This document shows, in pieces, positions 8,996-62,596 of a stretch of 64,000 bases of DNA (its first letter is position 1; each line of letters starts with the position of its first letter). Under the pieces are notes generated by a model. That model saw only the letters and a program-made list of their open reading frames with translations. It ran no database searches and was not told where the DNA came from. The translations under genes and the position numbers were made by a program. This stretch comes from an uncultured Myxococcales bacterium (GTDB taxonomy: Bacteria; Myxococcota_A; UBA9042), in contig CAIMLR010000028.1 of NCBI GenBank assembly GCA_903842345.1, positions 248,001 through 312,000 on the forward strand, given 5' to 3'.

Positions 8996-10192
8996 ATGGC
9001 ACGTGTCCTCATCATCGGCGCCGGCGGCGTCGGCAACGTCGTCATCAAGAAGTGCGCGCAGAACGCGGAAGTCTTCACGGACATTCTGATCGCGAGTCGC
9101 CGCATCATCAGCTGCGAGAAGATCGCCGCTGAGATCAAGTCAGCCGCGCGCATTACGACTGCGCAAGTTGACGCCGATGACGTCCCGCAGACGGTGGCCT
9201 TGATCCGCAAGTTCAAGCCGGATCTGGTCATCAACGTGGCGCTGCCTTACCAGGACCTGACGATCATGGACGCGTGCCTGGAAGCGGGCGTGAACTACCT
9301 GGACACGGCGAACTATGAGCCGCGCGACGTCGCCAAGTTCGAGTATTCGTGGCAGTGGGCGTACCAGGAGCGGTTCCAGAAGGCCGGCCTGATGGCGCTG
9401 CTGGGCTGCGGCTTTGACCCGGGCGTGACCAACGTGTTCACGGCGTGGATGCACAAGCACCGCTTTGACAAGGTCGAGACGCTGGACATCATCGACTGCA
9501 ATGCCGGCAGCCACGGCAAGCATTTTGCGACGAATTTCAATCCGGAGATCAACATCCGCGAGATCACGCAGAATGGCCGGTACTGGAAGGACGGCGAGTG
9601 GATCGAGACGCAGCCGCTGGAAATCCACCGCGCGATCGACTACCCGCAGGTTGGGCCAAAAGAGAGCTATCTGCTGTTCCATGAAGAGTTGGAGAGCCTG
9701 GTCAAGCACTTTCCGGACATCAAGCAGGCGCGTTTTTGGATGACGTTCGGCCAGCAGTACATCACGCATCTGACGGTCCTGCAGAACGTGGGGATGACGC
9801 GGATCGACGCGATCGATTTCAACGGCCAGAAGATCATCCCGCTGGAATTCCTGAAGGCGCTGCTGCCGGAGCCAGGTTCGCTGGGCGCTGACTACACGGG
9901 CAAGACGTGCATCGGCGTGCAGTTGAAGGGCGAGAAAGACGGCGTGGCGACGACGCATTTTGTCTACAACGTCTGCGATCACGCGGCGTGCTGGCAGGAA
10001 GTGCAGTCCCAGGCGGTGAGCTACACGACCGGCGTGCCGGCGATGATTGGCGCGGCGTTGATGCTGACCGGCCAGTGGAAGGGCGCGGGCGTGTTCAACG
10101 TGGAACAGCTCGATCCGGATCCGTTCATGACGATGCTGAACCGTTGGGGCCTGCCGTGGCAGGAGCTCGCGGGCGTTGAGCTGGTGCCGTGA
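8996..10192 (+). CDS. Carboxynorspermidine/carboxyspermidine synthase (dehydrogenase)
   Basis: The 398-residue protein has the N-terminal Rossmann motif GAGGVG at residues 8-13 and the overall pattern of the saccharopine-dehydrogenase family (LINVALPYQD, GVNYLDTANYEP, LGCGFDPGVTNVF, IDCNAGSHGK). This subgroup condenses L-aspartate beta-semialdehyde with putrescine or 1,3-diaminopropane, using NADPH, to give carboxyspermidine or carboxynorspermidine. The next gene encodes the matching decarboxylase, which makes the assignment firm. The ATG at 8996 follows GGGAGG at a good distance. The two genes overlap by four bases. The enzyme is cytoplasmic. Confidence 0.93.
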   Translation: MARVLIIGAGGVGNVVIKKCAQNAEVFTDILIASRRIISCEKIAAEIKSAARITTAQVDADDVPQTVALIRKFKPDLVINVALPYQDLTIMDACLEAGVNYLDTANYEPRDVAKFEYSWQWAYQERFQKAGLMALLGCGFDPGVTNVFTAWMHKHRFDKVETLDIIDCNAGSHGKHFATNFNPEINIREITQNGRYWKDGEWIETQPLEIHRAIDYPQVGPKESYLLFHEELESLVKHFPDIKQARFWMTFGQQYITHLTVLQNVGMTRIDAIDFNGQKIIPLEFLKALLPEPGSLGADYTGKTCIGVQLKGEKDGVATTHFVYNVCDHAACWQEVQSQAVSYTTGVPAMIGAALMLTGQWKGAGVFNVEQLDPDPFMTMLNRWGLPWQELAGVELVP

Positions 10193-11427
10193 CGCTCCAG
10201 CGGCAGCCGCCAATGGCGGCCAAACAGGCACATCCCCAGAGCGCCCACATGCAGGAAGCGGCGCAAGCGCCGAGCGTGACGCCCGCGGACGAGGTTGACT
10301 TCAGCCTCGCGCCGTCGCCGTGTTTTCTGCTCGATGAGGCGCGGCTTCACGCCAACCTGCAGTTGATGGCGCATGTCCAGGAAGCCGCGGAGTGCACGAT
10401 CATCCTCGCGCTCAAGGCGTTTTCAACCTGGAGCGCGTTCCCGATCGTCAGCCAATACCTGCGCGGGGCGACGGCCAGCAGCCTCAATGAAGCGCTGCTT
10501 GTGAACACGCAGATGCCGGGCGCGCAACTGCACGTCTACGCCCCGGCGTACACGCCTGACGAGTTCACGGCGATTTTGCCGCTCGCCAGCCACGTGACGT
10601 TCAACTCGTTTGCCCAGTGGCAGCGCTTCAAGCCGCAGATCCAGGCTTCGCTGCACAAGATTTCCTGCGGGATCCGGGTGAATCCGGAGCACGCGGAAGT
10701 GGAAGTGGGCGCGTACAACCCGTGTGTGCCGGGCAGCCGTCTGGGCGTGACCCGCGGGCAGTTCAAGCCGGACCAGTTGGACGGGATCGACGGGCTGCAT
10801 TTTCACGCGCTGTGCGAGTCGGGCTCCGAGCAGCTGGAACGCACGCTGGCGGCGTTTGAGGCGCGCTTCGGCGAGTTCCTGCCGCAGATGAAATGGGTCA
10901 ACTTTGGCGGCGGCCACCTGATGACGCGCGACGGCTATGACGTCGAGAAGCTCATTGGGCTGGTGCGCGCGTTCCGCAAGCGCTGGGGCGTTGAGGTGAT
11001 TCTGGAGCCGGGCAGTGCGGTGGCGTGGCGCACGGGCTGGCTTGTCGCAACGGTGCTGGACATCGGTGAAAACCAGATGCCGTTTGGCCTCCTGGACGTG
11101 TCCGTGTCCGCGCACATGCCGGATTGCCTGGAGATGCCGTACCGGCCGATGATCCTCGGATCAGGCGAAGCGGGCGAGAAGGCGTTTACCTACCGACTGG
11201 GCGGCAATACGTGCCTGGCGGGCGACGTGGCGGGCGACTACTCGTTTGACCAGCCGCTGCAGATCGGCGATCGCCTCGTGTTTGACGACATGATCCACTA
11301 CACGATGGTCAAAACGACGTTCTTCAACGGCGTGAAACACCCAAGCATCGCGCACCGCACGCCCGATGGCGCGGTGCGCGTGGTGCGGACGTTCGGTTTT
11401 GACGACTTCAAGCGGCGGCTTGGCTAG
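10189..11427 (+). CDS. nspC: Carboxynorspermidine decarboxylase
   Basis: The enzyme decarboxylates carboxynorspermidine or carboxyspermidine to norspermidine or spermidine, using pyridoxal phosphate. It belongs to the alanine-racemase-fold (group IV) decarboxylases: TPCFLLDE-type opening (SPCFLLDE), PLP lysine in LALKAFSTW near residue 75, GIRVNPEH, GLHFHALCE, FGGGHLMTR and LEPGSAVAW. The frame starts with GTG at 10189 overlapping the upstream TGA stop, which implies translational coupling; ATG codons at 10213 and 10249 are alternative starts and would fit the usual family length of about 380 better. It completes the two-step pathway with the gene upstream. Confidence 0.93.
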   Translation: MTLQRQPPMAAKQAHPQSAHMQEAAQAPSVTPADEVDFSLAPSPCFLLDEARLHANLQLMAHVQEAAECTIILALKAFSTWSAFPIVSQYLRGATASSLNEALLVNTQMPGAQLHVYAPAYTPDEFTAILPLASHVTFNSFAQWQRFKPQIQASLHKISCGIRVNPEHAEVEVGAYNPCVPGSRLGVTRGQFKPDQLDGIDGLHFHALCESGSEQLERTLAAFEARFGEFLPQMKWVNFGGGHLMTRDGYDVEKLIGLVRAFRKRWGVEVILEPGSAVAWRTGWLVATVLDIGENQMPFGLLDVSVSAHMPDCLEMPYRPMILGSGEAGEKAFTYRLGGNTCLAGDVAGDYSFDQPLQIGDRLVFDDMIHYTMVKTTFFNGVKHPSIAHRTPDGAVRVVRTFGFDDFKRRLG

Positions 11428-11433
11428 ACCACA

Positions 11434-11973
11434 CTAGGCAGTCGCGACTTCCGGTGCGCTCACGGACGACGTCGCCGTCGCAAAGCGCTTGCGGATGACC
11501 TTGGCGAGCTGCTGCGCGTCCCACACCGGACCGGCAACGAAGGACAGCGGGTCCTCGGCAAAAGCCGGAGCGTTCTTTTCGTACTTGTAGTGGCCGACGA
11601 GGTTCATGCCCCAGCCGCCGACGAACGCTGTCGCGGACAGGAACCACGGCGGTGAATAGCGCGGCGCCACAAGCAGCCCCAGCGCGCCGCCGACAATCAG
11701 CGGAATGCCCGCCATGTGCAGCACGCGGTTGGTCGGGTCCTGGTGCGTCTGCTCGTAGAACGACGTCGCCGCCGCCCAGCGCTGGGAGAAATCGCCGCGG
11801 AACTCCGGATGCCGGACGCGCCACTTCTTCTCCAGCCCAGACACGCCGCGGCCGAACATGATGATGGCAGTGAATTTCTGCCCGGAGAGAAGCGCGGCGC
11901 CACCGGCCGCAGCCAGCGCCTGATCGCGTTTTTCCTCGGGAACAAAGGCAACAATCTTCTGCAACATGCCCAT
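11434..11973 (-). CDS. Mpo1-like (DUF962) small membrane protein
   Basis: The 179-residue protein carries the family hallmark HQDPTNRVLHMAGIPL followed by two or three hydrophobic stretches and GHYKYEKNAPAFAEDPLSF with a final GPVWD. Yeast Mpo1, the studied member, is an Fe(II) dioxygenase in 2-hydroxy fatty-acid degradation; the conserved His residues here (HQDP, HMAG, GHYKYE) are those thought to bind iron. The bacterial role is unproven. I chose the ATG at 11973, preceded by GGAGG at about 8 bases, over an upstream TTG/GTG frame. The gene ends 6 bases from the convergent nspC stop. Confidence 0.85.
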   Translation of the reverse strand: MGMLQKIVAFVPEEKRDQALAAAGGAALLSGQKFTAIIMFGRGVSGLEKKWRVRHPEFRGDFSQRWAAATSFYEQTHQDPTNRVLHMAGIPLIVGGALGLLVAPRYSPPWFLSATAFVGGWGMNLVGHYKYEKNAPAFAEDPLSFVAGPVWDAQQLAKVIRKRFATATSSVSAPEVATA

Positions 11974-12071
11974 GACGTTTTCCTCCAGTGCGGCTGGCAA
12001 GATAGCACGCGGCCCGAGCGCGCTCAACACGACGTACGCGCAGTCGTTTCGCTGAAGTGGCGCGCAACGAC

Positions 12072-12100
12072 TTGACTTTGCGCCACGGCGACAAGAGAGT
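12072..12100 (+). promoter_or_regulatory. Possible promoter of the radical SAM/carbamoyltransferase operon
   Basis: TTGACT at 12072-12077 and GAGAGT at 12095-12100 are 17 bp apart, about 40 bases upstream of the first gene of the cluster. The -35 element is good and the -10 element weak, so an activator may be needed if the site is used. Confidence 0.3.
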
Positions 12101-12142
12101 CAGATTCGGAGGCGGTGTTTCAAGCTGCGTACTCCAGGTGGT

Positions 12143-13684
12143 ATGGAGCGGATGGACACAGGCGCAGACGCTGACGTAGTTGTGCTCCCGCTCGCGGCGG
12201 GTCGTCTCACTGTGCCCGTTGAGCTGCGGCGCCGCGATGAATCCCGGCAAGCGTGGCGGCGTCTCGCGCGCGTGCAGGTTGGCTATCGCGGGGCGTTGCC
12301 GCCGTTGACGGCCGCGGAATCGAGTGCATTTTTCGCGGAAATGGCGGCCTTGGCGGAACGCGCGGATGCTGCGTTGGCGCAAACGCCGGAGGTGTCTTTG
12401 GCGCAAGCCCTCGGCCTCCCGCCGCCGTCCGCCTCGCGTCAGGCGGTTCATCGCCAGTCGCCGCCGCCGACCCTGTGCGCGCTGCCCTTTCGCGCGCTGG
12501 ACATTGACACGCAGGGCCACGCGCGCCCCTGCTGCCTCTTTGCCGATCCGCTGCTCGACGACGCTGGCCGGCCGTTTTCCGTTCGCGAGCACGGTCTGGC
12601 GGAAATTTGGCAGTCGGCGTCGCTCGCCAAGGTGCGGCAGGATTTGCTGGACGGCACGCAGATTCCCGCGTGCGCGCGCTGTTGGCAGGCTGAAGCCGTC
12701 GGCGCCCAATCGCGCCGCGAGGTCTACTTTCATCGCCGTCCGGAGCTGCTCGCGGTCGACCTGAGCAAAACCGTGCGGCTGGAAGACCTCTCGCTCTGTC
12801 CGGGCAACCTGTGCAACCTGAGGTGCCGCACGTGCAGCCCGGCTTCAAGCTCGTCCGTGGCGCTGGAATGGCGCGACTTGCCGGACACCGCCGCGCAGTT
12901 GCCCATCGTCCAGCGGATGCGCCAGCAGGTCCTCCAGACCCAGAACTGGCTCCTGGACAACGACGTGATGCGCCCGAGCCTGCAAGCTCTGAGCGGGCAA
13001 CTGCAGCGCGTGGAGTTCGTCGGCGGCGAGCCGTCGGTCATCGACGCGCATTTTGACCTGCTCCGCGACTGGGTGGCGATGGGCCGCGCCAAGGAGATTG
13101 AGCTGGACTATACGCTCAACGGCACGCGCATTCCTGAAGCGGCGCGGGCGCTGTGGCCGGCGTTTCGCCGCGTGAATGTGCGGGTGAGCCTGGACGCGGT
13201 GGGCGCCCGCTTTGAGTACCTTCGCCATCCGGCAAAGTGGTCGGTCGTTGCGCAAAATGTCCTGCAGTTTCGCGAAATCGGCAAGAATGTTCACGTCGTT
13301 GTCAACGCGACGTTGAGCGCCTACAACGTGCTGTATCTGCATGAACTCATCGCGTGGGCTCAGGCGCAGGCGCTGATTTTGGGCCTGAGTCCGGTTTTTG
13401 ACCCGCCGTACTTTGATCCGGCGATCCTGCCTGACGCGGCCAAGCAGGCGGTGGCGGCCACGCTGGCGCCTCTGCCCTTGACCGGGGAATTGCGGCAGAA
13501 TGTGGAAGGCCTGCTGCTGGCCTTGGACCGACAGCCCGCTTCGGCGGCCGATCAGGAACTTTTCTTTGCCCACACGCACACGATTGACGCGGTGCGCGGG
13601 CAGTCGTTTGCCCAGACGTTTCCTGAGCTCGCGGCGTTTCTGGACTGGGATGACCGGCTGAAACGCAACGCGCGGCCGGTGTGA
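12143..13684 (+). CDS. Twitch-domain radical SAM protein
   Basis: The 513-residue protein has a SPASM/twitch-like iron-sulfur region placed before the radical SAM core. CALPFRALDID at about residue 112, PCCLF at 129-131 and CARCWQAEAVGAQSRR near 176-191 match the layout of twitch-type radical SAM proteins. The core follows: LCPGNLCNLRCRTCSP supplies the CX3CX2C motif for the [4Fe-4S] cluster near residues 224-231, then FVGGEPSV as the SAM-binding GGE-type motif. Such enzymes often modify peptides or other biosynthetic substrates. It is the first gene of a three-gene operon: 6 bases separate its stop from the carbamoyltransferase start. The start is ambiguous between ATG at 12143 and 12152. 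No precursor peptide gene was recognised beside it. Confidence 0.88.
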   Translation: MERMDTGADADVVVLPLAAGRLTVPVELRRRDESRQAWRRLARVQVGYRGALPPLTAAESSAFFAEMAALAERADAALAQTPEVSLAQALGLPPPSASRQAVHRQSPPPTLCALPFRALDIDTQGHARPCCLFADPLLDDAGRPFSVREHGLAEIWQSASLAKVRQDLLDGTQIPACARCWQAEAVGAQSRREVYFHRRPELLAVDLSKTVRLEDLSLCPGNLCNLRCRTCSPASSSSVALEWRDLPDTAAQLPIVQRMRQQVLQTQNWLLDNDVMRPSLQALSGQLQRVEFVGGEPSVIDAHFDLLRDWVAMGRAKEIELDYTLNGTRIPEAARALWPAFRRVNVRVSLDAVGARFEYLRHPAKWSVVAQNVLQFREIGKNVHVVVNATLSAYNVLYLHELIAWAQAQALILGLSPVFDPPYFDPAILPDAAKQAVAATLAPLPLTGELRQNVEGLLLALDRQPASAADQELFFAHTHTIDAVRGQSFAQTFPELAAFLDWDDRLKRNARPV

Positions 13685-13690
13685 GGTAGG

Positions 13691-16600
13691 ATGCGGATTC
13701 TGGGCGTCAACGTGGGCAACAAGGAGTCGTCGCTGGCGTTGATCGACAACGGCGTCATCGTCGCGGCGATGTGCGAGGAGCGCCTGAGCCGCAACCGCTA
13801 CGACGAACGGCCGCCGATGTTGGCGCTGGACCGCGCGCTGCGCTCGCGGAATTGGACGTTGGACGACGTGGACCTCGTGGTGGGCAACCGCAGCGAGAAC
13901 CGGTTCCGCGCGCTGGCTGGACTGCCGCCGCGCGCGAATCCGCTGCGGACGCCGTGGCAGGAGGACGGTCCGGAGCGCCACGGTCTGCACCATGTGAGCC
14001 ACGCGGCGGCGGCGTTCTACACCAGCGGCTTCAGCGAGGCGCTGGTCCTCACGGTCGACAACCACGGCGACGACGACACGCTCGTCGTGTTCCGCGCAGA
14101 TGCCCAAGGGCTGACCCGGATCGCCAGTATTCCGCGCGGCCAGTTGACGGTGGGCGGGATCTACGAGGAGGCCACGCTGCAGCTCGGCTTTGGTCGGGGC
14201 GGCGAGGGCAAGTTGATGGGGCTGGCGGGCTATGCGCCGGCGGATCCGGCTTGGGCGCACGGCTTTTTGCACTTGCAGGCGGACGGCGCGACGCTGGGGT
14301 CCACGTGGCGGCACGGCCATCCTGCCGATCAGGTGCTGCGCGCGCCGTGGGCGCCCATCGACTTTGACCTGCACGCCAAGGTTGCGGCGTCCGTCCAAGC
14401 GGCGATTGAGACGACGGTCCTCGCGATCCTCCGGCAGGCGCAAGCGGCGACGGGACTGACGGACGTGTGTCTGAGCGGCGGCGTGGCGCTGAATTGTTCG
14501 ATGAATGGGCGGATTGGCCGCGAGCCATGGCTGACGCGCCTGTGGGTGCCGCCGAGTCCGGCGGATCCGGGCAACGCGCTGGGGGCGGCGCTGTTGGCGG
14601 GGGCGCGGCTCGGTGAGCCCGTGCAGCAGCGGCTCGCCGACGGCGGCTTGGGCGTGGCGTGGCAACCGGAGGAGGCGCTGGCGGCGCTGCGACAGGCAGG
14701 CGAGGCGACCGATGCCATCCTGACGCGGGGCGATGCAGCGCTGCAGGCGGCGCGGGATCTCGCGCAGGGCGCGCTTGTCGGCTGGTTTGAGGGACGCAGC
14801 GAGTTTGGCCCGCGGGCGCTCGGGCATCGCTCGATCCTCGGCGATCCGCGGCGCACGGACATCCGCGACCGCCTCAACGACGCCAAGCTGCGCGAGGGTT
14901 GGCGGCCTATCGCGCCGGCGATCCTGCAATCCGCGCAGGCGGATTGGGTCGAGGACACCCAGCCGTCGCCGTTCATGCTGCTGGCGATGCAGGCCAAGCC
15001 GCGCCTGCGTGACTTGGCTCCGGCGGCCGTGCACGTGGATGGCACCGTGCGCGCACAGACCGTTACGGCGGAGGCGACGCCCTATTACCACGCGATCATC
15101 GCGGCGTTCGCGGAGGCGACCGGCGTGCCGATGGTGCTCAACACGAGCTTCAATCAGGCGGGCGAGCCGATCGTGGAGTCCCCGGCCGACGCAATCGATT
15201 GCGCCCGGCGAAGCGGCCTTGATGTGCTGTATCTGGATGGAATTCGCGTCGCGCTGCCGCCGCGCCGTCAGCCGGTGGATACGCGCAAACGGCCGCGGAA
15301 GCTGGCGATCAGCGGTCCGGTGACGTTTGGCTGGCAGTTGGTCGCCGCGCAATTGCCGGGCTGCGTTGTCGACAAGCATGAAGGGGTGGAGCCGGCGACC
15401 CGGGCGGGCGCGCTGGCGCTGGGGCTCCAGCCCAACCGCGATCCGACGCTGCCGCTGCTGGCGACGGGCGCGCCGCTGGACCGCCTGCAGGCTTTGCTGG
15501 CGGCGGGCGATCGCCCGGTCTTCGCGCTTGGGCCGCTGCCCGGACCGGCGCCGATCCTGCCGCCGAACGCGTACGTGGGCCTGGCGACGCTGGCGATGGA
15601 CGGTGTGCGCGCGCTGGAGCGACACATGCCCGCGCAGCCACAGCACGTCGCGGTAGCGCTCGCGCTGGAATCGACGCCGCTGGCCGATGCCTCGGAGACG
15701 GAGAGCCTGACGCAGCGCCTGTTCGCGCGTCTGGCCGAAGGGCTCGGGCTTGTTGCGCACCTGCTCCAGCAGGACCTGACGGCGGTGACGCTGCGTGGAG
15801 CGTGGCCGCTGCCGGGACTGGAAGCGCAAACGGCGGATGGCAAGACGACGGTGCGGGTCGCGTTGCACGGCGACGGATTCGGCGTGGACGTGAGGGTCGA
15901 TGCACCCGACGGGCGCGTCGAGCTCGCGCGCGACGGCCGTTTGTCCGTTCCGCCGCCGCCGGGTGCGACGGGCGTGCGGACCAGCGACCACGGCATGACC
16001 CCGTTTGCCTGGGGTCGCGACGTTGCCTCCACGCTGGAGGGCGCCGCTTGGCCCGTGCGGCAATCGCGCGTCCTGGCGGCTGGCGAGGCGGTTGGCGACG
16101 CACTGGCGCGATGGCTGGATGCGTTGCTCGATCACCCCGGTCGGCTGGCCAACGTGGAACGCGAGAACTTCCGCAAGGCCGGCAATCCGCACGAGCGGCA
16201 GCCTGAAGCCCCGCCGCCAGACGCAGAACTTGCCGCGTGGATCGCGTCGGCGATTGTGCTCCATCCGGGCGCCGCGCTGCTTTCAGTCGTCGATGGCGTC
16301 CGGCCCGCGGCGGGCATTGAAAACGTGGATGCGGCGCGCCTGACGACGCTGCGCGCGGCGGCGGAGGCGATGGGGCTTACGGTCGCGACAAGTCAGGCCT
16401 ATGCGACCGCCGCGCCGGCGCGTCAGGCGTTGCGTGCGGACATGGCGGCGGCGCAGAGCGTGTTTGTGGCGCGCGACCCGGCGGTTGCCGCGCGGCTGGT
16501 GCGCCTCGACGCGGAGATGGCGGCGTCCCCGGACCGTGCGACGCTGAACGCGCTGCGGCTGGAGATGGGCGCGCTGTTCGGCTATCCGTCCTGTTGTCGG

Positions 16601-17311
16601 GCAAACTGGCTCGAACTGGAGCGGTTGGCGCTCCACGAGGCCTTTACCCACGCAATTCGCGCCGCGACGTTGGGGGCGCCCCATGGCCTGCTGAACCACC
16701 GCCCCGCCGGCAAATTTACCCAGCATTTCCCGTGCAGCTACAGGTGCAGTCGCAGCATCCGGCTCGCGGAGGCTGTGCGGACGGCGGCGACGCGCGACGG
16801 TCCACGTCTCGTGCGACTGGCGCGGGCGATTTGGCCGATTGATGAACTGCCAGCCGTCCTCGTTCAAGCCGTCGACGCGCTGGGCCTGGAGCCGGACGAC
16901 GAGGTCCGCGCGCGCCAACTCTCCGCGTTGGTCTGCGCGCCGCTGATCTACGTGGATCCCACCCGTTACCTCTGTCTGGTCGGCACGCGCCTGGAATCCG
17001 TGCCGTCCGATGGCAACACGGAGGCGTGGCTCCTGCATGGCGGCCGCGTCGTGAGCAGCGCAGATTTGCGCCTCAGCCCCGGCTCGCCGGAAGAGGTGCT
17101 GCTGCAGTCGCACCTGACCGCGGAATTGGCGGGGCCGCTGGCGCGCGCGCTCGCGCATGGCCCCGTCCGCTGGCAGCAAGGGTTGCCTGGTGCGAACGTG
17201 GCGACGCAAATCGACGGTCAGGGGCTCACGCTCGCGCAGCCGTGGCAAACGGCCTTGCTCGTGCCTTTTGGCGAAGGCGACACGGCGATTCCGGTCGCGG
17301 AGCCGCGATGA
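13691..17311 (+). CDS. NodU/TobZ-type carbamoyltransferase fused to a large unusual C-terminal extension
   Basis: The 1206-residue protein begins with a complete carbamoyltransferase (about residues 1-525). Visible motifs are the N-terminal GVNVGNKESSLAL, metal-site HHVSHAAAAF near 100, EGKLMGLAGYA near 175, the YrdC-like partner motif GWFEGRSEFGPRALGHRSIL near 364-383, and LNTSFNQAGEPIV near 483. Such enzymes use carbamoyl phosphate and ATP to O-carbamoylate natural products. Family members normally end at 550-600 residues. Here a further 680 follow: about 535-860 looks like a degraded Gfo/Idh-fold, and 960-1020 holds GYPSCCRANW and PCSYRCSRS, a Cys pattern like that of DUF483 proteins. GAGGTAGG precedes the ATG. 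The gene overlaps the next by four bases (ATGA), so the product likely works with both neighbours. Confidence 0.88.
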   Translation: MRILGVNVGNKESSLALIDNGVIVAAMCEERLSRNRYDERPPMLALDRALRSRNWTLDDVDLVVGNRSENRFRALAGLPPRANPLRTPWQEDGPERHGLHHVSHAAAAFYTSGFSEALVLTVDNHGDDDTLVVFRADAQGLTRIASIPRGQLTVGGIYEEATLQLGFGRGGEGKLMGLAGYAPADPAWAHGFLHLQADGATLGSTWRHGHPADQVLRAPWAPIDFDLHAKVAASVQAAIETTVLAILRQAQAATGLTDVCLSGGVALNCSMNGRIGREPWLTRLWVPPSPADPGNALGAALLAGARLGEPVQQRLADGGLGVAWQPEEALAALRQAGEATDAILTRGDAALQAARDLAQGALVGWFEGRSEFGPRALGHRSILGDPRRTDIRDRLNDAKLREGWRPIAPAILQSAQADWVEDTQPSPFMLLAMQAKPRLRDLAPAAVHVDGTVRAQTVTAEATPYYHAIIAAFAEATGVPMVLNTSFNQAGEPIVESPADAIDCARRSGLDVLYLDGIRVALPPRRQPVDTRKRPRKLAISGPVTFGWQLVAAQLPGCVVDKHEGVEPATRAGALALGLQPNRDPTLPLLATGAPLDRLQALLAAGDRPVFALGPLPGPAPILPPNAYVGLATLAMDGVRALERHMPAQPQHVAVALALESTPLADASETESLTQRLFARLAEGLGLVAHLLQQDLTAVTLRGAWPLPGLEAQTADGKTTVRVALHGDGFGVDVRVDAPDGRVELARDGRLSVPPPPGATGVRTSDHGMTPFAWGRDVASTLEGAAWPVRQSRVLAAGEAVGDALARWLDALLDHPGRLANVERENFRKAGNPHERQPEAPPPDAELAAWIASAIVLHPGAALLSVVDGVRPAAGIENVDAARLTTLRAAAEAMGLTVATSQAYATAAPARQALRADMAAAQSVFVARDPAVAARLVRLDAEMAASPDRATLNALRLEMGALFGYPSCCRANWLELERLALHEAFTHAIRAATLGAPHGLLNHRPAGKFTQHFPCSYRCSRSIRLAEAVRTAATRDGPRLVRLARAIWPIDELPAVLVQAVDALGLEPDDEVRARQLSALVCAPLIYVDPTRYLCLVGTRLESVPSDGNTEAWLLHGGRVVSSADLRLSPGSPEEVLLQSHLTAELAGPLARALAHGPVRWQQGLPGANVATQIDGQGLTLAQPWQTALLVPFGEGDTAIPVAEPR

Positions 17312-20124
17312 CGAGCAACAACCAACGCTCCATCGTGCCCTTCTCGGTCACGGACGCGTGCAACGCCCACTGCGTCTTCTGCGCGCAGCACGTGCCGCGC
17401 ATGACGCCGGATCTGCGCGACGATCGCGTGCTCGGCCGTCTGGCGGAGCTGCTGGAGCGCGAGCAACCCGCGGGCGTCATCCTGGGCGGCGGCGAGCCGA
17501 CTTTGCACCCGTTGCTGCCGGACATCATCCGCCGCATCCGGGCGACAGGCGCGACCGCAGTCCTGCACACCAATGGCATGCGGCTGGGCGATCCGCGCTA
17601 CCTCCAGGCGCTCGTCGCGGCGGACGTCAGCGGCTTTCGCATCGGCATTTTTGGCCACGACGCGGCGACTGCTGCCGCGGCGACACGCCTGCCGCGCGCG
17701 TTTGAACTGACGGCGCACGGCATCGACAACGCGCTCGCATCGGGCCTGCCCGTGGAGCTCGAGACGCCCGTGAATCGCGCGACGCAGGCCTCGCTCCTGC
17801 CGCTTGCCCAACTGGCCGTGGCGCGCTGGCCGAGCCTGACGGCGTTTCGCTTTGTGCCGTACCGCTCGCGCGAGCCGGAGGCGCCAGATGCGCTGCACGT
17901 GCTGCCGGCGCACGCGGAGGGCGATCTGAGCAAGGCGCTGAGCCTCCTTGCCGCTGCGGGCATCGCGGTTCGGCTCGCGAGCACCGAAGGGTTCCATCCG
18001 TGCGCCTTTCGCAACGTTGCGAAGCTGACGCCGCTGTTGACCGTGGAAGGCGCGCGCGATGCTTCCGGGCGGGTTCACCTGCCGCCGTGCCAGGGTTGCG
18101 CGCTGTTTGGTCGCTGCCAGGGTGTCGAGCGGTCTTTGGCTGCGCACTTTGGCGAGGCGGCCGTCACGCCGTTCGATCCCAGCCGCTCGTTGGCGTGGCT
18201 GCCGGGCGGTCGGCGCACCAAACCGGAGGCGTCGCACATCGATCTGGACGTGCAAGCCGTCGGTGCGTCAGGCCGGAGCGCCTCGCGGGAGCACGTGATC
18301 CGCATTCTGCACGCGTGCAACCAGCGCTGCGGGTTCTGCTGGGTCGATTTCTCCGGTCCGGAGATGTCGCTCGATGCGGTGCAGGAGCGCATTCGCGGCC
18401 TCTTGGCGTCTGGCGGCGACGACCTTTCCGTGACGTTTACGGGCGGTGAACCCACGCTGCATCGCGACCTGATCGCCATGATCGCCGCTGCGCGGGAGGC
18501 GGGCGTGGCGCGGATCGGCATCCAGACCAACGCGACGCGCCTTGGCGATGGCGCGCTGGCCGGCCAATTGGCGGCCGCCGGGCTCGACCAAGCGCTGGTC
18601 GCGCTGCACCACCATGATGCCGCCGCATCCGACGCGCTGACGGCCGCGCCGGGCACGCACGCACGGACAGTCGCGGGGATCCGGCGCCTGTGTGAAGCGG
18701 GCATTTCCGTCACGCTCAATCACGTCATCACGCGGCAATCCGCAGCGGAATTCCCGGAATTCATCGCGTTTGTCGCCCGTGAGCTGGGCAGCTTCCCGGA
18801 GTTGTCGCTCAGCCTGGCGGTGGCCAGCCACATCGGCGACGGACCGCTGGACCCTGACGTCCTGCCGCGCATGGCGGAACTTGCCGCGCCGTTCCGCGTC
18901 GGCCTCCTGTTGGCGCGCGCCGAGGGCCTGGTCCTGGACAACCTGATCCACCCGTGCGGCGTGCCGCCGTGCGTCCTAGATGGCGACGTTGGCGTCTACG
19001 GCGAGGAGCAGCCGCACGCCGGCATTGGCGTGGGGGACCCGTCCTGCGTGAAGCCGGATTTCTGCCGCGACTGCCGGTTTGACGCCGTGTGCCCCGGGAT
19101 TCGCAAGGAATACGCGGCCAAGTTTGGGATTGCGGAGTTTCACGCTGTGCCGCACTTGTCGGCGGCGCGCGCGGCGGTGATTGGCCTGGGCCAGATGGGC
19201 AAGCGCCACGCTGCTGCTTGGCGGGAGCTGCTCGGGGCCGACGCCGTGACCGCGCTCGTCCGCCACGACCGCGATGCCGACGCGATGGCGCAGCTCGGGC
19301 TGACGCTGCCGCCGGTTCACGCGCTGGAGGGGTTGGTCGGGCAGGGCGTGTCGGTCGTCAGCATCGCCACGCCGACGGAAAGCCACGCGCCGCTGGCGTT
19401 GCCGCTTCTGGCGGCGGGGTTGCCTGTGCTGTGCGAGAAGCCGCTCGCGGCCGATCTCGCGGAAGCCGAACAGCTGGCGGCGTTCGGGGAACTGGCCGGG
19501 CCGCGCTGTTTCGTCGCGCATACGACGCGTGCCGAGCCGGCGGTCCAGACCCTGCACGACGCGATTGCCCGTGGGCGGATCGGCGTGCTGCAGCGGATCG
19601 ACCAGCTGCGCGTGGAGCCGAGCCTGAACGCCGGTCCGCACCCGACGCCGCATGCGATGGCGCAGCTCTACGACCTGTTGATTCACGAAGTCTCGATTTT
19701 CGGCGAGCGGCTGGCGGACGCGGTCGTCGTCAATGCCCGCTGGCTGGACGGCCACGACGCGGGGCTGAGGGCGACCGTGCGGACGCCGGAACTGGAGCTG
19801 CTGCTGACGGTCCAAATCGGCGGCGGCGAGGCGCGGCGGGAACTGCGCGCGTTCGGTTCTTCCGGCACGCTGGACTTGCACGTGAGCCGTGGGCGGTCGC
19901 GCGCGACGCTGACGCGGGACGGCCATGCCCGCGCGTTGGCGGTCGCTGAGCGCGACGCGACGCAGGCGGTGGCGGCTGAAGTGCTCGATGCGATTCGCCG
20001 GCGTCGGCCAAGCTTCCTCGACGCGCAGCATGGGCTGACCGTGATGCGGGTGGCGGGCGCGATTGCCGCCGCGGTCGCTCCTCCCCGCGGCGTGATGCCC
20101 TTTGCCTGGCCGCCGCGCGCCTGA
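17308..20124 (+). CDS. Fusion of two radical SAM domains and a Gfo/Idh/MocA-type oxidoreductase
   Basis: The 938-residue protein starts at the ATG at 17308 inside the stop of the carbamoyltransferase gene. Radical SAM domain 1 (about 1-290) has CNAHCVFC at residues 18-25, GGGEPTLHP near 60 and a C-terminal CQGCALFGRC cluster. Radical SAM domain 2 (about 330-610) has CNQRCGFC near 338-345, FTGGEPTLH near 378 and auxiliary-cluster cysteines CGVPPC and CRDCRFDAVCPG near 550-597. From about residue 622 an NAD(P)-dependent oxidoreductase domain begins with AAVIGLGQMGKRHA, followed by VSIATPTESH and CEKPLAA near 709, the standard Gfo/Idh signature. Three catalytic units in one chain suggest channelling of one substrate. 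The reaction is unknown. Confidence 0.88.
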   Translation: MTSNNQRSIVPFSVTDACNAHCVFCAQHVPRMTPDLRDDRVLGRLAELLEREQPAGVILGGGEPTLHPLLPDIIRRIRATGATAVLHTNGMRLGDPRYLQALVAADVSGFRIGIFGHDAATAAAATRLPRAFELTAHGIDNALASGLPVELETPVNRATQASLLPLAQLAVARWPSLTAFRFVPYRSREPEAPDALHVLPAHAEGDLSKALSLLAAAGIAVRLASTEGFHPCAFRNVAKLTPLLTVEGARDASGRVHLPPCQGCALFGRCQGVERSLAAHFGEAAVTPFDPSRSLAWLPGGRRTKPEASHIDLDVQAVGASGRSASREHVIRILHACNQRCGFCWVDFSGPEMSLDAVQERIRGLLASGGDDLSVTFTGGEPTLHRDLIAMIAAAREAGVARIGIQTNATRLGDGALAGQLAAAGLDQALVALHHHDAAASDALTAAPGTHARTVAGIRRLCEAGISVTLNHVITRQSAAEFPEFIAFVARELGSFPELSLSLAVASHIGDGPLDPDVLPRMAELAAPFRVGLLLARAEGLVLDNLIHPCGVPPCVLDGDVGVYGEEQPHAGIGVGDPSCVKPDFCRDCRFDAVCPGIRKEYAAKFGIAEFHAVPHLSAARAAVIGLGQMGKRHAAAWRELLGADAVTALVRHDRDADAMAQLGLTLPPVHALEGLVGQGVSVVSIATPTESHAPLALPLLAAGLPVLCEKPLAADLAEAEQLAAFGELAGPRCFVAHTTRAEPAVQTLHDAIARGRIGVLQRIDQLRVEPSLNAGPHPTPHAMAQLYDLLIHEVSIFGERLADAVVVNARWLDGHDAGLRATVRTPELELLLTVQIGGGEARRELRAFGSSGTLDLHVSRGRSRATLTRDGHARALAVAERDATQAVAAEVLDAIRRRRPSFLDAQHGLTVMRVAGAIAAAVAPPRGVMPFAWPPRA

Positions 20125-20147
20125 TTTGGGCGCCATCGTCGGTCCGC

Positions 20148-22557: not shown

Positions 22558-27075
<4,518 letters not shown>

Positions 27076-27089
27076 AGGCGACCTCTTTT

Positions 27090-27116
27090 GGGGTAGACCC
27101 CACGCGCGTTTCGCGC
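27090..27116 (-). promoter_or_regulatory. Two small hairpins in the leader of the MopE-like gene
   Basis: On the transcript of the MopE-like gene two adjacent inverted repeats lie 15-41 bases before the start: GCGCG/CGCGC with a 3-base loop (27104-27116) and GGGG/CCCC with a 4-base loop (27090-27101). The second ends just before the ribosome-binding site and could affect translation. TTGACC on the minus strand further upstream may be the -35 element, but the -10 is unclear. Confidence 0.3.
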
Positions 27117-27229
27117 ATTCGAGCAACAACCTCAATAAGAGTACAACTTACCTGCTTCGGTCAACAGATAGAAGAGTCCGAAAAGCAGAAGTTTGCATTC
27201 ATCGCGCGGGAGAGGCGCTGCGACGGCGG

Positions 27230-59521: not shown

Positions 59522-62500
59522 GTGCGCGCATTGGGCCGATTGTCAGCTTTGGGCCTCGTTGCGTTCTTCGCGAGCGTCGCACTGGGTGGCTGCGGCTTGT
59601 TGCACAAGGCCGCGGCCGACGTGGAAGAGGATCCCACCGTTGTCGACGACACAACCGACGCGGATGCTGACCTGAGCGATGCGGATGCCGCCGACGACGC
59701 GGGCGATGGCGCAGCAGACGTCCCCGATGCCACCGATGCCCACGATGCTGCGGCCGCCAAGGATGCGGGCAAAGACGCCGCCCACGATGTGGCGAAGGCC
59801 GCTGCGGATGCACTGGACGCGGGCGACGGGCAGGGCGATGCGCCAGACATCGCCGTCGATGCCGCGAGCCAGGATGTGCCGGATGCGGGGCCACCGGTAT
59901 GCACCGCCGGGCAAATCGCCGCGTGCAACGACAAGAGCGCCTGCACCGATGACACGTGCGACGCCATTTTTGGCTGCAACCACGTCTACAACGAGGCAGC
60001 CTGCGACGACGGCTCCGCATGCACCAGCGGCGACACCTGCAAGGACGGCCAATGCCTGGGCAGCGTCATCACCTGCGACGACGGCAAGGGCTGCACCAGC
60101 GACGTCTGCAAGCCGAGCTTTGGCTGCATCCATCAGAACGCGACGGGGCCTTGCGATGACGGCAACATCTGCACCACGGCGGAGAACTGCAAGGCCGGCT
60201 CGTGCATCGGTGGCTCACCGGCCGATTGCAGTGATGGCATCGCGTGCACGCTGGACACGTGCGATCCCGCGGTGGGCTGCCAGCACACCTCCGGCGACGG
60301 ACCTTGCGACGATGGCAGCTACTGCACCGTGGGCGAGACCTGCACCGGCGGCGTCTGCGGCGGCGGCAGCGCGGCGCTCTGCAACGACGGCAATGACTGC
60401 ACGAGCGACGGCTGCGACCCGCCGTCCGGCTGCACCTTCACCGTGCTTTCCGGTGCGTGCGACGACTCCGATCCGTGCTCGACCCAGGACGTGTGCAAAG
60501 GCGGCAACTGCGCCGGCGTGCCGCTCGTCTGCGTGCCCGCCGACGTGTGTCACGGCGCCGGCGTGTGCGTGTCCAAGACCGGGACGTGCAATCCGGTCAA
60601 CGCGCCCGACGGGGTGCCCTGCAACGACGGCTTCGCGTGCACGACGGGCGACACATGCACGGGCGGGGCGTGCGTTGGCGCAAACCAGTGCGACGACGAC
60701 GACGTGTGCACGCTTGACGCATGCGCGAAGGTTGGCGGCTGCAGCCACACGGCGAGCTGCACGGTCGGCGGCGCGGTGACCGGCCTGGCCAGCGCGGGCC
60801 TGACGCTGAAGAGCGGCGCCCACATCGTCGCGCTCACCCAGGATGGGCCGTTCACGCTGAGCGGCGGCTTCGGCAACGGCGGCAACTACTTCACGACGAT
60901 CGCGAGTTCACCTTTGAGCCCGCCGCAACGGTGCACGGTCGTCCGCGGCTCGGGCGCGATCCGCGGCGGCAACGTCGCCGACATCGCGGTCACGTGTTCA
61001 GGCTGTGGCGACGGCGCGGTCGGTCCCGATCCCGCAACGCGCATCGATGTGGAATGGCTGGCCAACACGGCGACGCCGGCGCCGGAGTTCATGGATTGCT
61101 CGCTCAACGGCGCGCAGCTGCTTCACGTCAACGCCGCGACGCCCGATCAGTACTGCGACACGCTGATTCACCGCGAGCTCCTCACCGATCCGCTGACCTT
61201 GGCTGCGCTGACGCCGGGCAAGAACGCGCTTTCGTGCCAATTCGCCCAGAACATGGCGTGGATCGTGGCGACGGTGCGGCACGCATCCGGGCGGAGCGAG
61301 CAGGTCGTCGTGTATGATTATCCGGGCGACGCGGGCGGCCTCACGGACGCCATCCGCCGCAACAGCGCGTGCCCCGGCTACGACACGCCAGGCAAGGTCT
61401 CCGCGATCCTGACCGTCCAGCAATCGGAGACGTGCGACGACGGCAACCTGGACGAAGGCGACGGCTGTTCGTCCGTCTGCCTGCCGGAGAGCTGCACGAC
61501 CGGCGTGGATGGCGACAAGGATGGCCTGGACGACTGCTACGAAACCGCGACTGGCGTCTTTGTCGACGAGACCCACACGGGAACTTCCCCGCTGCTCTGG
61601 GACACCGATGGCGACGGGCTCGGCGACGGCGACGAATTGCTTGGCACGGCGGGCGGCCTGAACCTGGCCGCGCTTGGCGCCAATCCGCTGCGCCAGGATG
61701 TCTTTGTCGAGGCGGATTGGATGGAGGACGACGCGGATTGCGCGCTCCACACCCATCAAATCACGCCGGGCGCCGAGGCGATGGCGGTCCAGATGTTCGC
61801 CAACGCGCCGCACGTGAACCCGGACGGCAGCACCGGCATCGCGCTCCACATTGACTACGGCCAGGGCGGCGTCTGGCAGGGCGGCGGCAAGGCGGGCACG
61901 ACGATTGAATTGCCGCCAGACATTGGCCCCGACCTCGCCGCGATCAAAGCGAGCCACTTCGCGGGGAACCGGCTCGGCTATTTCCACTACGCGCTGATGA
62001 TGCACAGCTTGGGCCCCACGGCGGGCGGGATCGGCGAGATCACGGGCGACGATTTCATCGTGGCCAGCGGCGGCTGCGACGTGTGCTACAAGTGCCAGGG
62101 CACGGCGATTCCCGGCCATCTGCCCATCGAGGCGTTCTGCCACGAACTCGGCCACAACCTCGGCTTGGGCCATGGCGGCGACAGCGCGTGCAACGGCAAG
62201 GCCAACTATCCGTCCATCATGAACTACCGCCACGCGTATTTTGGCATCGATGGCGATTGCGACGACCAGCCGGACGGGACGCTCGACTACTCGCGCGGCG
62301 ACCGCACGCCGCTGGACGAGAAAGCGCTGAACGAGGCCGATGGCGTGTGCAGCGGCTTCTGGATCGACTGGAACAATGACGGCAAGGTCACGCCCAAAGT
62401 GCTCAAGGACCTGAACGGCGAGTTCAACGCCACCTGCCCCGGCGGCATCTACAGCGCGTTCACCGACCACGACGACTGGGGCACGTTGAGCTTCAGCGGC

Positions 62501-62596
62501 GTGACCTCGGGCGTCGCTGCGGCGGTCGGCGCGGGGCGAAAGGCGCAGGTCTGCTACGACGACCCGGGCTCCGTGGCCAAGCGCCAGCCGCGGTAG
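59522..62596 (+). CDS. Cys-rich metalloprotease-like lipoprotein
   Basis: The 1024-residue protein starts at a GTG at 59522. A type II signal peptide ends in LGGC (Cys24), followed by an Asp/Ala linker of about 100 residues. From about 125 to 415 run roughly ten Cys-rich units such as CDDGSACTSGDTCKDGQC. The myxobacterial motif CDDGNLDEGDGCSSVC lies near 640, and a Ca-binding DTDGDGLGDGDE follows near 695. The catalytic zinc site HELGHNLGLGH starts at residue 874 with a Met-turn-like SIMNYRH about 25 residues on, as in metzincin proteases. The fold of the catalytic part is not determined. It would be a cell-surface protease, perhaps for prey or matrix digestion. Confidence 0.87.
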   Translation: MRALGRLSALGLVAFFASVALGGCGLLHKAAADVEEDPTVVDDTTDADADLSDADAADDAGDGAADVPDATDAHDAAAAKDAGKDAAHDVAKAAADALDAGDGQGDAPDIAVDAASQDVPDAGPPVCTAGQIAACNDKSACTDDTCDAIFGCNHVYNEAACDDGSACTSGDTCKDGQCLGSVITCDDGKGCTSDVCKPSFGCIHQNATGPCDDGNICTTAENCKAGSCIGGSPADCSDGIACTLDTCDPAVGCQHTSGDGPCDDGSYCTVGETCTGGVCGGGSAALCNDGNDCTSDGCDPPSGCTFTVLSGACDDSDPCSTQDVCKGGNCAGVPLVCVPADVCHGAGVCVSKTGTCNPVNAPDGVPCNDGFACTTGDTCTGGACVGANQCDDDDVCTLDACAKVGGCSHTASCTVGGAVTGLASAGLTLKSGAHIVALTQDGPFTLSGGFGNGGNYFTTIASSPLSPPQRCTVVRGSGAIRGGNVADIAVTCSGCGDGAVGPDPATRIDVEWLANTATPAPEFMDCSLNGAQLLHVNAATPDQYCDTLIHRELLTDPLTLAALTPGKNALSCQFAQNMAWIVATVRHASGRSEQVVVYDYPGDAGGLTDAIRRNSACPGYDTPGKVSAILTVQQSETCDDGNLDEGDGCSSVCLPESCTTGVDGDKDGLDDCYETATGVFVDETHTGTSPLLWDTDGDGLGDGDELLGTAGGLNLAALGANPLRQDVFVEADWMEDDADCALHTHQITPGAEAMAVQMFANAPHVNPDGSTGIALHIDYGQGGVWQGGGKAGTTIELPPDIGPDLAAIKASHFAGNRLGYFHYALMMHSLGPTAGGIGEITGDDFIVASGGCDVCYKCQGTAIPGHLPIEAFCHELGHNLGLGHGGDSACNGKANYPSIMNYRHAYFGIDGDCDDQPDGTLDYSRGDRTPLDEKALNEADGVCSGFWIDWNNDGKVTPKVLKDLNGEFNATCPGGIYSAFTDHDDWGTLSFSGVTSGVAAAVGAGRKAQVCYDDPGSVAKRQPR

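Follow-up and report, generated by a model that had tools for sequence, protein, structure and literature searches.

Introduction

The addition of O-carbamates has precedents in the decoration of aminoglycosides and nodulation factors, and Gfo/Idh enzymes act mostly on sugars. Among the class III carbamoyltransferases (CTs), such as TobZ, GdmN, NovN and NodU, the iron ligands of GdmN are H133, H137, D156 and D333, and its H27N variant is inactive, while CTs devoid of a dimerization domain usually take polar acceptors (PMC9633730). In addition, a preprint describes StdF, a NodU-like CT that takes part in RiPP biosynthesis as a fusion with a peptidase, and shows that a NodU-like CT carbamoylates lysine in a RiPP (PMC13174530). 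In Thermus phages, a radical SAM gene adjoining a DUF483 gene constitutes a module suggested to modify DNA, and fusions of DUF483 to radical SAM proteins and to a methyltransferase were noted in the same work (PMC11437467).

At the locus described here, tailoring enzymes of known classes occur in two fusions not described before, and the three genes together form an apparently mobile cassette. A preliminary description of the sequence could not match this combination to any described pathway; a literature search agreed, yielding no account that joins radical SAM, CT and Gfo/Idh and no pathway with these fusions.

Gene layout and conservation

The three genes are encoded on the + strand of the window, by which the whole analyzed stretch of 64,000 nucleotides is meant. 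The source genome is denoted G000, the genomes compared with it carry other G numbers and the loci compared carry L numbers, L002 being the copy of the cassette in G004. All comparisons draw on draft genomes, and genome-wide counts refer to the top few scored candidates per genome. The features of the locus are the following:

12028..20135 (ends approximate), + strand: whole cassette, upstream stretch and three genes, delimited by flank homology to empty sites
12143..13684, + strand: P0001, twitch-first radical SAM protein, 513 aa (NF033640)
12476..12685, + strand: P0001 N-terminal SPASM/twitch Fe-S domain, residues 112-181 (PF13186, 31.5 bits, cut-off 21.5)
12812..12835, + strand: P0001 SAM-cluster motif CNLRCRTC, from the sequence, its three cysteines kept in 4 homologues
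13691..17311, + strand: P0002, carbamoyltransferase with long C-terminal extension, 1206 aa (ORF, profiles)
13691..15247, + strand: P0002 CT domains, residues 1-519 (profiles, alignment to TobZ)
15248..17308, + strand: P0002 extension, residues 520-1206, with full-length homologues L002_4 and L056_6 only, among the matches listed
16253..16975, + strand: P0002 DUF483 module, residues 855-1095 (PF04467, invariant cysteines, structure model)
17308..20124, + strand: P0003, double radical SAM-Gfo/Idh fusion, 938 aa (ORF, profiles, alignment)
17308..18207, + strand: P0003 radical SAM domain 1 with C18, C22 and C25 and auxiliary C261, C264 and C270 (profile, alignment)
18265..19155, + strand: P0003 radical SAM domain 2 with C337, C341 and C344 and with C550, C555, C586, C589 and C595 (profile, alignment)
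19162..20076, + strand: P0003 Gfo/Idh/MocA oxidoreductase domain (PF01408, 65.5 bits, cut-off 24; motifs)

The first and second genes are spaced by 6 bases, while the second and third overlap by 4 bases (ATGA), which agrees with the tight coupling noted in the preliminary description. Profile scores likewise corroborated the enzyme types proposed there, namely a twitch-type radical SAM protein, a CT and a double radical SAM-Gfo/Idh fusion, and the long CT extension, put at ~680 residues, measures 687 aa behind CT domains that end at residue 519. This account of the genes thus stands, but it had overlooked DUF483 in the extension, the boundaries of the cassette and the altered CT active site.

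The CxxxCxxC motifs of the trio are all intact (3/3). A relative from a separate assembly, G004, keeps the three genes with identities of 87-89%, and comparison of the genes, in order, with this copy gives dN/dS values of 0.16, 0.13 and 0.13, indicative of purifying selection; the genes are therefore regarded as real.

The radical SAM proteins P0001 and P0003

P0001 scores 287.8 bits against the N_Twi_rSAM model (NF033640; cut-off 170) and possesses both the twitch and the radical SAM cysteines, which makes it a member of this subfamily. It likewise features an N-terminal twitch domain followed by the radical SAM core, although with about 108 extra N-terminal residues, and its twitch cysteines C112, C130, C131, C177 and C180 are kept in 4 homologues. 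Affiliation with prokaryotic viperins (NF038283; cut-off 180), and with it a viperin-type defense, was rejected on scores of 21.9 bits for P0001 and 69.4 bits for P0003; the viperin-type matches returned by PADLOC are read as general radical SAM likeness.

Both radical domains of P0003 have SAM-cluster cysteines that are invariant in the 4 full-length fusions aligned, and the motifs GLGQMG, EKPL and DLLIHE of the third domain match GxGxxG, the EKP lysine and DxxxH, which places it in the Gfo/Idh family as an NAD(P) oxidoreductase domain that looks intact. The best relatives of radical domain 2 are HxsC4/HxsC of peptide systems among family models and BlsE among solved structures, from which P0003 differs by its two radical SAM domains plus Gfo/Idh and by scores far under the cut-offs. 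Membership was accordingly rejected for HxsC and HxsC4 (125.9 and 153.1 bits vs NCBIfam cut-offs of 267.9 and 500) as well as for BlsE (98 vs 400). A second double radical SAM protein of the source genome (L075_6; G000:C28:79256-81049) is encoded ~180 kb from the cassette, with neither DUF483 nor CT nearby.

The carbamoyltransferase domains of P0002

P0002 shares with the class III CTs TobZ, GdmN, NovN and NodU both characteristic domains, Carbam_trans_N with 106.1 bits (cut-off 24) and Carbam_trans_C with 209.4 bits (cut-off 27), but it differs from them by a lysine in place of the catalytic histidine and by the DUF483-bearing extension. TobZ is its best match in the PDB, and membership in the NodU family (NF041651) was rejected at 138.5 bits vs an equivalog cut-off of 1000. 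In an alignment with TobZ and 14 relatives, the iron ligands H100, H104, D123 and D292 are conserved and correspond to H114, H118, D137 and D338 of TobZ. At the position of the catalytic base, H14 in TobZ and H27 in GdmN, P0002 carries K11 instead (loop 1, NKES) and hence lacks the GdmN-type histidine, a replacement that the alignment also places in L002_4 and L056_6. The lysine is read as a probable sign of altered acceptor chemistry, not as proof of inactivity; since the H27N exchange kills GdmN, P0002 could be a weak or differently used CT, which would speak against the function favored below. Being natural, the replacement provides a handle on the acceptor chemistry of such CTs.

Loss of the loop-1 histidine, mostly to glutamine, was also observed in CTs of a radical SAM-linked clade (L057_9, L059_2, L063_2 and L058_10), the last of which has no radical SAM gene beside its own. 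The residue is kept in CTs such as L038, L046 and L048 and absent from L045; its loss is therefore not limited to radical SAM-linked CTs. An N-terminal ferredoxin-like CxxCxxC region is present in L057_9, L059_2, L063_2 and L061_5, three of the four also having a C-terminal radical SAM domain. These four belong to a supported clade separate from P0002, in which CTs are fused to, or adjoin, radical SAM proteins. A single origin of the linkage between CT and radical SAM was rejected, provisionally as regards the deep forks of the tree, as the CT-radical SAM and DUF483-CT clades are each supported and do not join. Like StdF, P0002 combines a CT with an extra domain within a tailoring gene set; unlike StdF, it is devoid of a peptidase domain, and the cassette encodes no precursor peptide, YcaO or MNIO.

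DUF483 and the extension of P0002

The full-length extension, sought in 379 genomes of the phylum, came up in G000, G004 and G018 only, among the matches listed. Its DUF483 module consists of a small alpha/beta part and a helical part that holds C968, C969, C1015 and C1019. Against PF04467 (gathering score 25) it reached 19.9 bits by hmmscan and 25.1 bits together with its neighbors in a six-frame search. All 27 sequences of one alignment share the cysteine site GxxxGxPxCC...C...C without exception, and GxPxCC...C...C is likewise invariant in a 23-sequence alignment; the latter pattern, defined in this analysis from the alignment, served as the criterion for DUF483 and is present in P0002. The structure model of the DUF483 core is fair (pTM 0.73), while that of the whole extension is poor outside the module. 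At E<=0.001, neither model matched any entry of the PDB, and the core model matched none of the viral folds in BFVD.

Unlike the full-length extension, DUF483 as such occurs widely, and it is fused to double radical SAM proteins (L096_7, L177_6), to a single radical SAM protein (L108_6), to degenerate radical SAM-like domains (L098_7, L113_3) and, in P0002, to a CT. Because it occurs with several different enzymes, either fused to them or as the product of a neighboring gene, it may act as a docking or substrate module, a role to which the fusions point. For DUF483, a role that can be tested is thereby proposed, namely a partner or substrate module that radical SAM enzymes, CTs and further tailoring enzymes have in common. 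The Thermus phage module is similar in the adjacency of radical SAM and DUF483 genes and in the fusions of the two domains, whereas it differs in being phage-borne, in the single radical SAM gene described (the comparison covers the radical SAM and DUF483 genes of a module that has a third gene) and in that CT and Gfo/Idh go unmentioned (PMC11437467).

Several further DUF483 loci were encountered. In the viral contigs L143, L146 and L151, a radical SAM gene lies closely upstream of the DUF483 match, as in Thermus phages. L107_6 (L107, 6280-8634) carries DUF483 behind a protein weakly resembling FAD-dependent halogenases (20.4 bits vs a 21-bit cut-off), with several radical SAM genes adjoining. 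Both L096_7 and L096_8 are double radical SAM proteins without CxxxCxxC in the first domain, and one half therefore looks like a pseudo-enzyme. In L099, L103, L104, L111 and L112, which represent five members of the family, the DUF483 protein measures 349-452 aa and its gene has an apparently shared neighborhood, with no radical SAM nearby.

Cassette boundaries and probable mobility

The cassette of ~8.1 kb separates an Mpo1-like gene from a GH92 gene; the two are directly adjacent, with no gene between them, in the congeneric genomes G001, G002, G003 and G004. Homology to these empty sites stops at 12027/12028 on the left and restarts on the right at 20136 (G001) or 20161 (G004), leaving margins of ~115 bp 5' of the first gene and ~11 bp 3' of the third. 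G004 thus has an empty site at this locus, yet it carries the trio elsewhere. This copy, L002, shows 85% nucleotide similarity to the cassette; the similarity ends on the right at 20125, one base past the last stop codon, and on the left it tapers off 5' of the first gene. The start that blastn sets at 11968 probably lies too far to the left, because the clear match to L002 begins near 12062. The gene upstream of the cassette in L002 has no relative among the other genomes searched.

Judged from these positions, the cassette appears to move between genomic sites as one unit; transfer as a block is suggested by location and not by a mechanism, as the ends show no terminal repeats, only chance matches of 8-9 bp, and neither mobility genes nor a phage or integrase gene are found inside. 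Loss in other genomes combined with rearrangement is a possible alternative to transfer but requires more steps. A plasmid search gave no match to P0003, and the extension of P0002 had none in the phage genomes searched. Since the block appears mobile as a unit, its whole function should be testable with three genes.

The GH92, Mpo1-like and polyamine decarboxylase genes belong to the ancestral locus and lie outside the cassette. A full biosynthetic cluster was rejected, as the cassette ends sit just beyond the three genes and the neighbors are ancestral. The cassette lacks genes for a scaffold, a carrier or a transporter as well as any obvious precursor gene, and the 5' region, when screened for a precursor peptide, contained just non-matching ORFs of 19-49 codons; the cassette would therefore at most tailor a molecule supplied by the host. 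Hence, of the specialized-metabolite interpretation put forward initially, the enzyme types, the coupling and the missing pathway match are retained, whereas the notion that the set builds a metabolite finds no support.

Distribution of the trio and its components

The components of the trio also occur apart from one another: P0001-type genes alone in G001 and G002, and a P0002-type gene alone in G018. No radical SAM gene accompanies L056_6, whose contig is short. P0003-type proteins without CT or P0001 were found in at least 7 other genomes, P0003 relatives being mostly CT-free. A Gfo/Idh domain is fused to, or adjoins, a double radical SAM protein in at least 7 genomes; among P0003-type cases without CT, it is fused in L068_10 and L071_6 and adjacent in L003, L004 and L005.

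In other Myxococcota families, islands of 5-6 radical SAM genes plus DUF483 occur within 20 kb or less (L173, L174, L176, L177, L183 and L184), radical SAM and DUF483 being the ingredients shared with the cassette. Twitch-first radical SAM, DUF483 and double radical SAM come together in L074, L173, L174 and L184 and partly in L098; the twitch-first domains were recognized by profile in L074, L098, L173 and L184, while L174_3 is the apparent counterpart of L173_9. As to sampling, L173-L178 and L183 were picked for having both features, and L184 and L185 for DUF483. DUF483 was present in none of the four loci picked for double radical SAM alone (L179-L182), and a radical SAM gene lay within the stretch in 7 of the 20 picked for DUF483 alone (L096-L115). 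The link between radical SAM and DUF483 is real but partial. One protein of these islands, L177_6 (1439 aa), unites a pseudo-radical SAM domain, two radical SAM domains and DUF483.

The proposal that the three genes are kept together consequently fares in two ways: it is supported by the two loci, by purifying selection and by the clustering of radical SAM with DUF483, but the exact trio was found, among the matches listed, in two genomes of one genus only (G000 and G004). Tentatively, the cassette may be a mobile and compact version of a Myxococcota modification machinery not described so far, composed of double radical SAM, twitch-first radical SAM and DUF483 modules. Other families would display this machinery as islands of 5-6 radical SAM genes with domains swapped between proteins, while in this genus DUF483 would have been fused to a CT, and the double radical SAM would have gained an oxidoreductase domain.

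Proposed function and alternatives

The favored reading, to which a probability of about 0.5 is assigned irrespective of the acceptor class, is that the cassette is mobile and self-contained and tailors an acceptor which the host supplies in trans. It is supported by the cassette ends and empty sites, the second locus in G004, the selection on the genes, the lack of scaffold, carrier and transporter genes inside, the fold and iron ligands of the CT, the cysteine site of DUF483 and its fusions to different enzymes, the loci that unite twitch-first radical SAM, DUF483 and double radical SAM, and the recurrence of Gfo/Idh with double radical SAM proteins. In this process, P0002 would use ATP and carbamoyl phosphate to form carbamoyl-AMP, from which the carbamoyl moiety would pass to the acceptor, while the DUF483 module of P0002 would hold the substrate or dock the radical SAM partners. 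The same acceptor would be the target of C-H chemistry by P0001 and both radical domains of P0003, and a carbonyl or hydroxyl group that this chemistry creates or exposes would be oxidized or reduced by the Gfo/Idh domain of the P0003 fusion. Against this count the precursor peptide not found in the cassette, the activity of BlsE, the nearest solved radical SAM relative, on a sugar nucleoside, the preference of Gfo/Idh enzymes for sugars, the mostly CT-free relatives of P0003 and the radical SAM-free surroundings of L056_6 on its short contig.

Regarding the acceptor, a ribosomal peptide or protein is slightly and cautiously favored, because the peptide maturases HxsC4/HxsC are among the closest relatives that family models give for the radical domains and because lysine in a RiPP is carbamoylated by a NodU-like CT according to the preprint (PMC13174530). 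A glycan or small molecule is ranked second, as a rather doubtful candidate, and a nucleic acid comes last of the three and is improbable.

Alternatively, and somewhat unlikely, the genes might tailor a sugar natural product or surface glycan, whereby the radical SAM proteins and Gfo/Idh would remodel or oxidize a sugar to which the CT adds an O-carbamate. TobZ as the top PDB hit for the CT, a Gfo/Idh domain complete with GxGxxG, EKP and DxxxH, the cytosylglucuronate decarboxylase BlsE as the closest solved radical SAM and the polar acceptors usual for CTs without a dimerization domain (PMC9633730) all conform to this; it is opposed by the lysine that replaces the histidine base of O-carbamoylation, by the low BlsE family score, by a cassette without glycosyltransferase or sugar-nucleotide gene and by the adjoining GH92 gene belonging to the ancestral flank.

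Hypermodification of DNA or tRNA would fit the mobility and the missing transport genes, and it gains from the Thermus phage module with its suggested DNA modification (PMC11437467), from a known CT that acts on 5-hydroxymethyl-dC DNA (PMC8670742) and from the radical SAM genes just upstream of DUF483 in the three viral contigs. It is nevertheless improbable, given that the cassette harbors no restriction, deazapurine or hydroxymethyl-base gene and no phage or integrase gene, that the extension was unmatched in phage genomes searched and that the closest CT matches in the genomes compared are cellular, several being CT-radical SAM-ferredoxin fusions. Finally, three unrelated passenger genes without a joint pathway, as the separate occurrence of each protein type might imply, are very improbable in view of the overlap of the second and third genes, the similar purifying selection on all three, the identical gene order at two loci and the co-clustering of radical SAM and DUF483 in other families.

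Other features of the window

A dehydrogenase and a PLP decarboxylase, the decarboxylase domain of which was checked, are encoded at 8996-11427 and presumably resemble the carboxynorspermidine route to polyamines. At 22558-27135 (- strand), a 1525-aa protein displays many CDGxDNDCDGxxD repeats resembling MopE-type metal-binding proteins. A repetitive protein encoded at 59522-62596 (+ strand) has repeats in common with two genes next to the copy of the cassette in L002; of these two, L002_7 contains Dicty_CTDC repeats.
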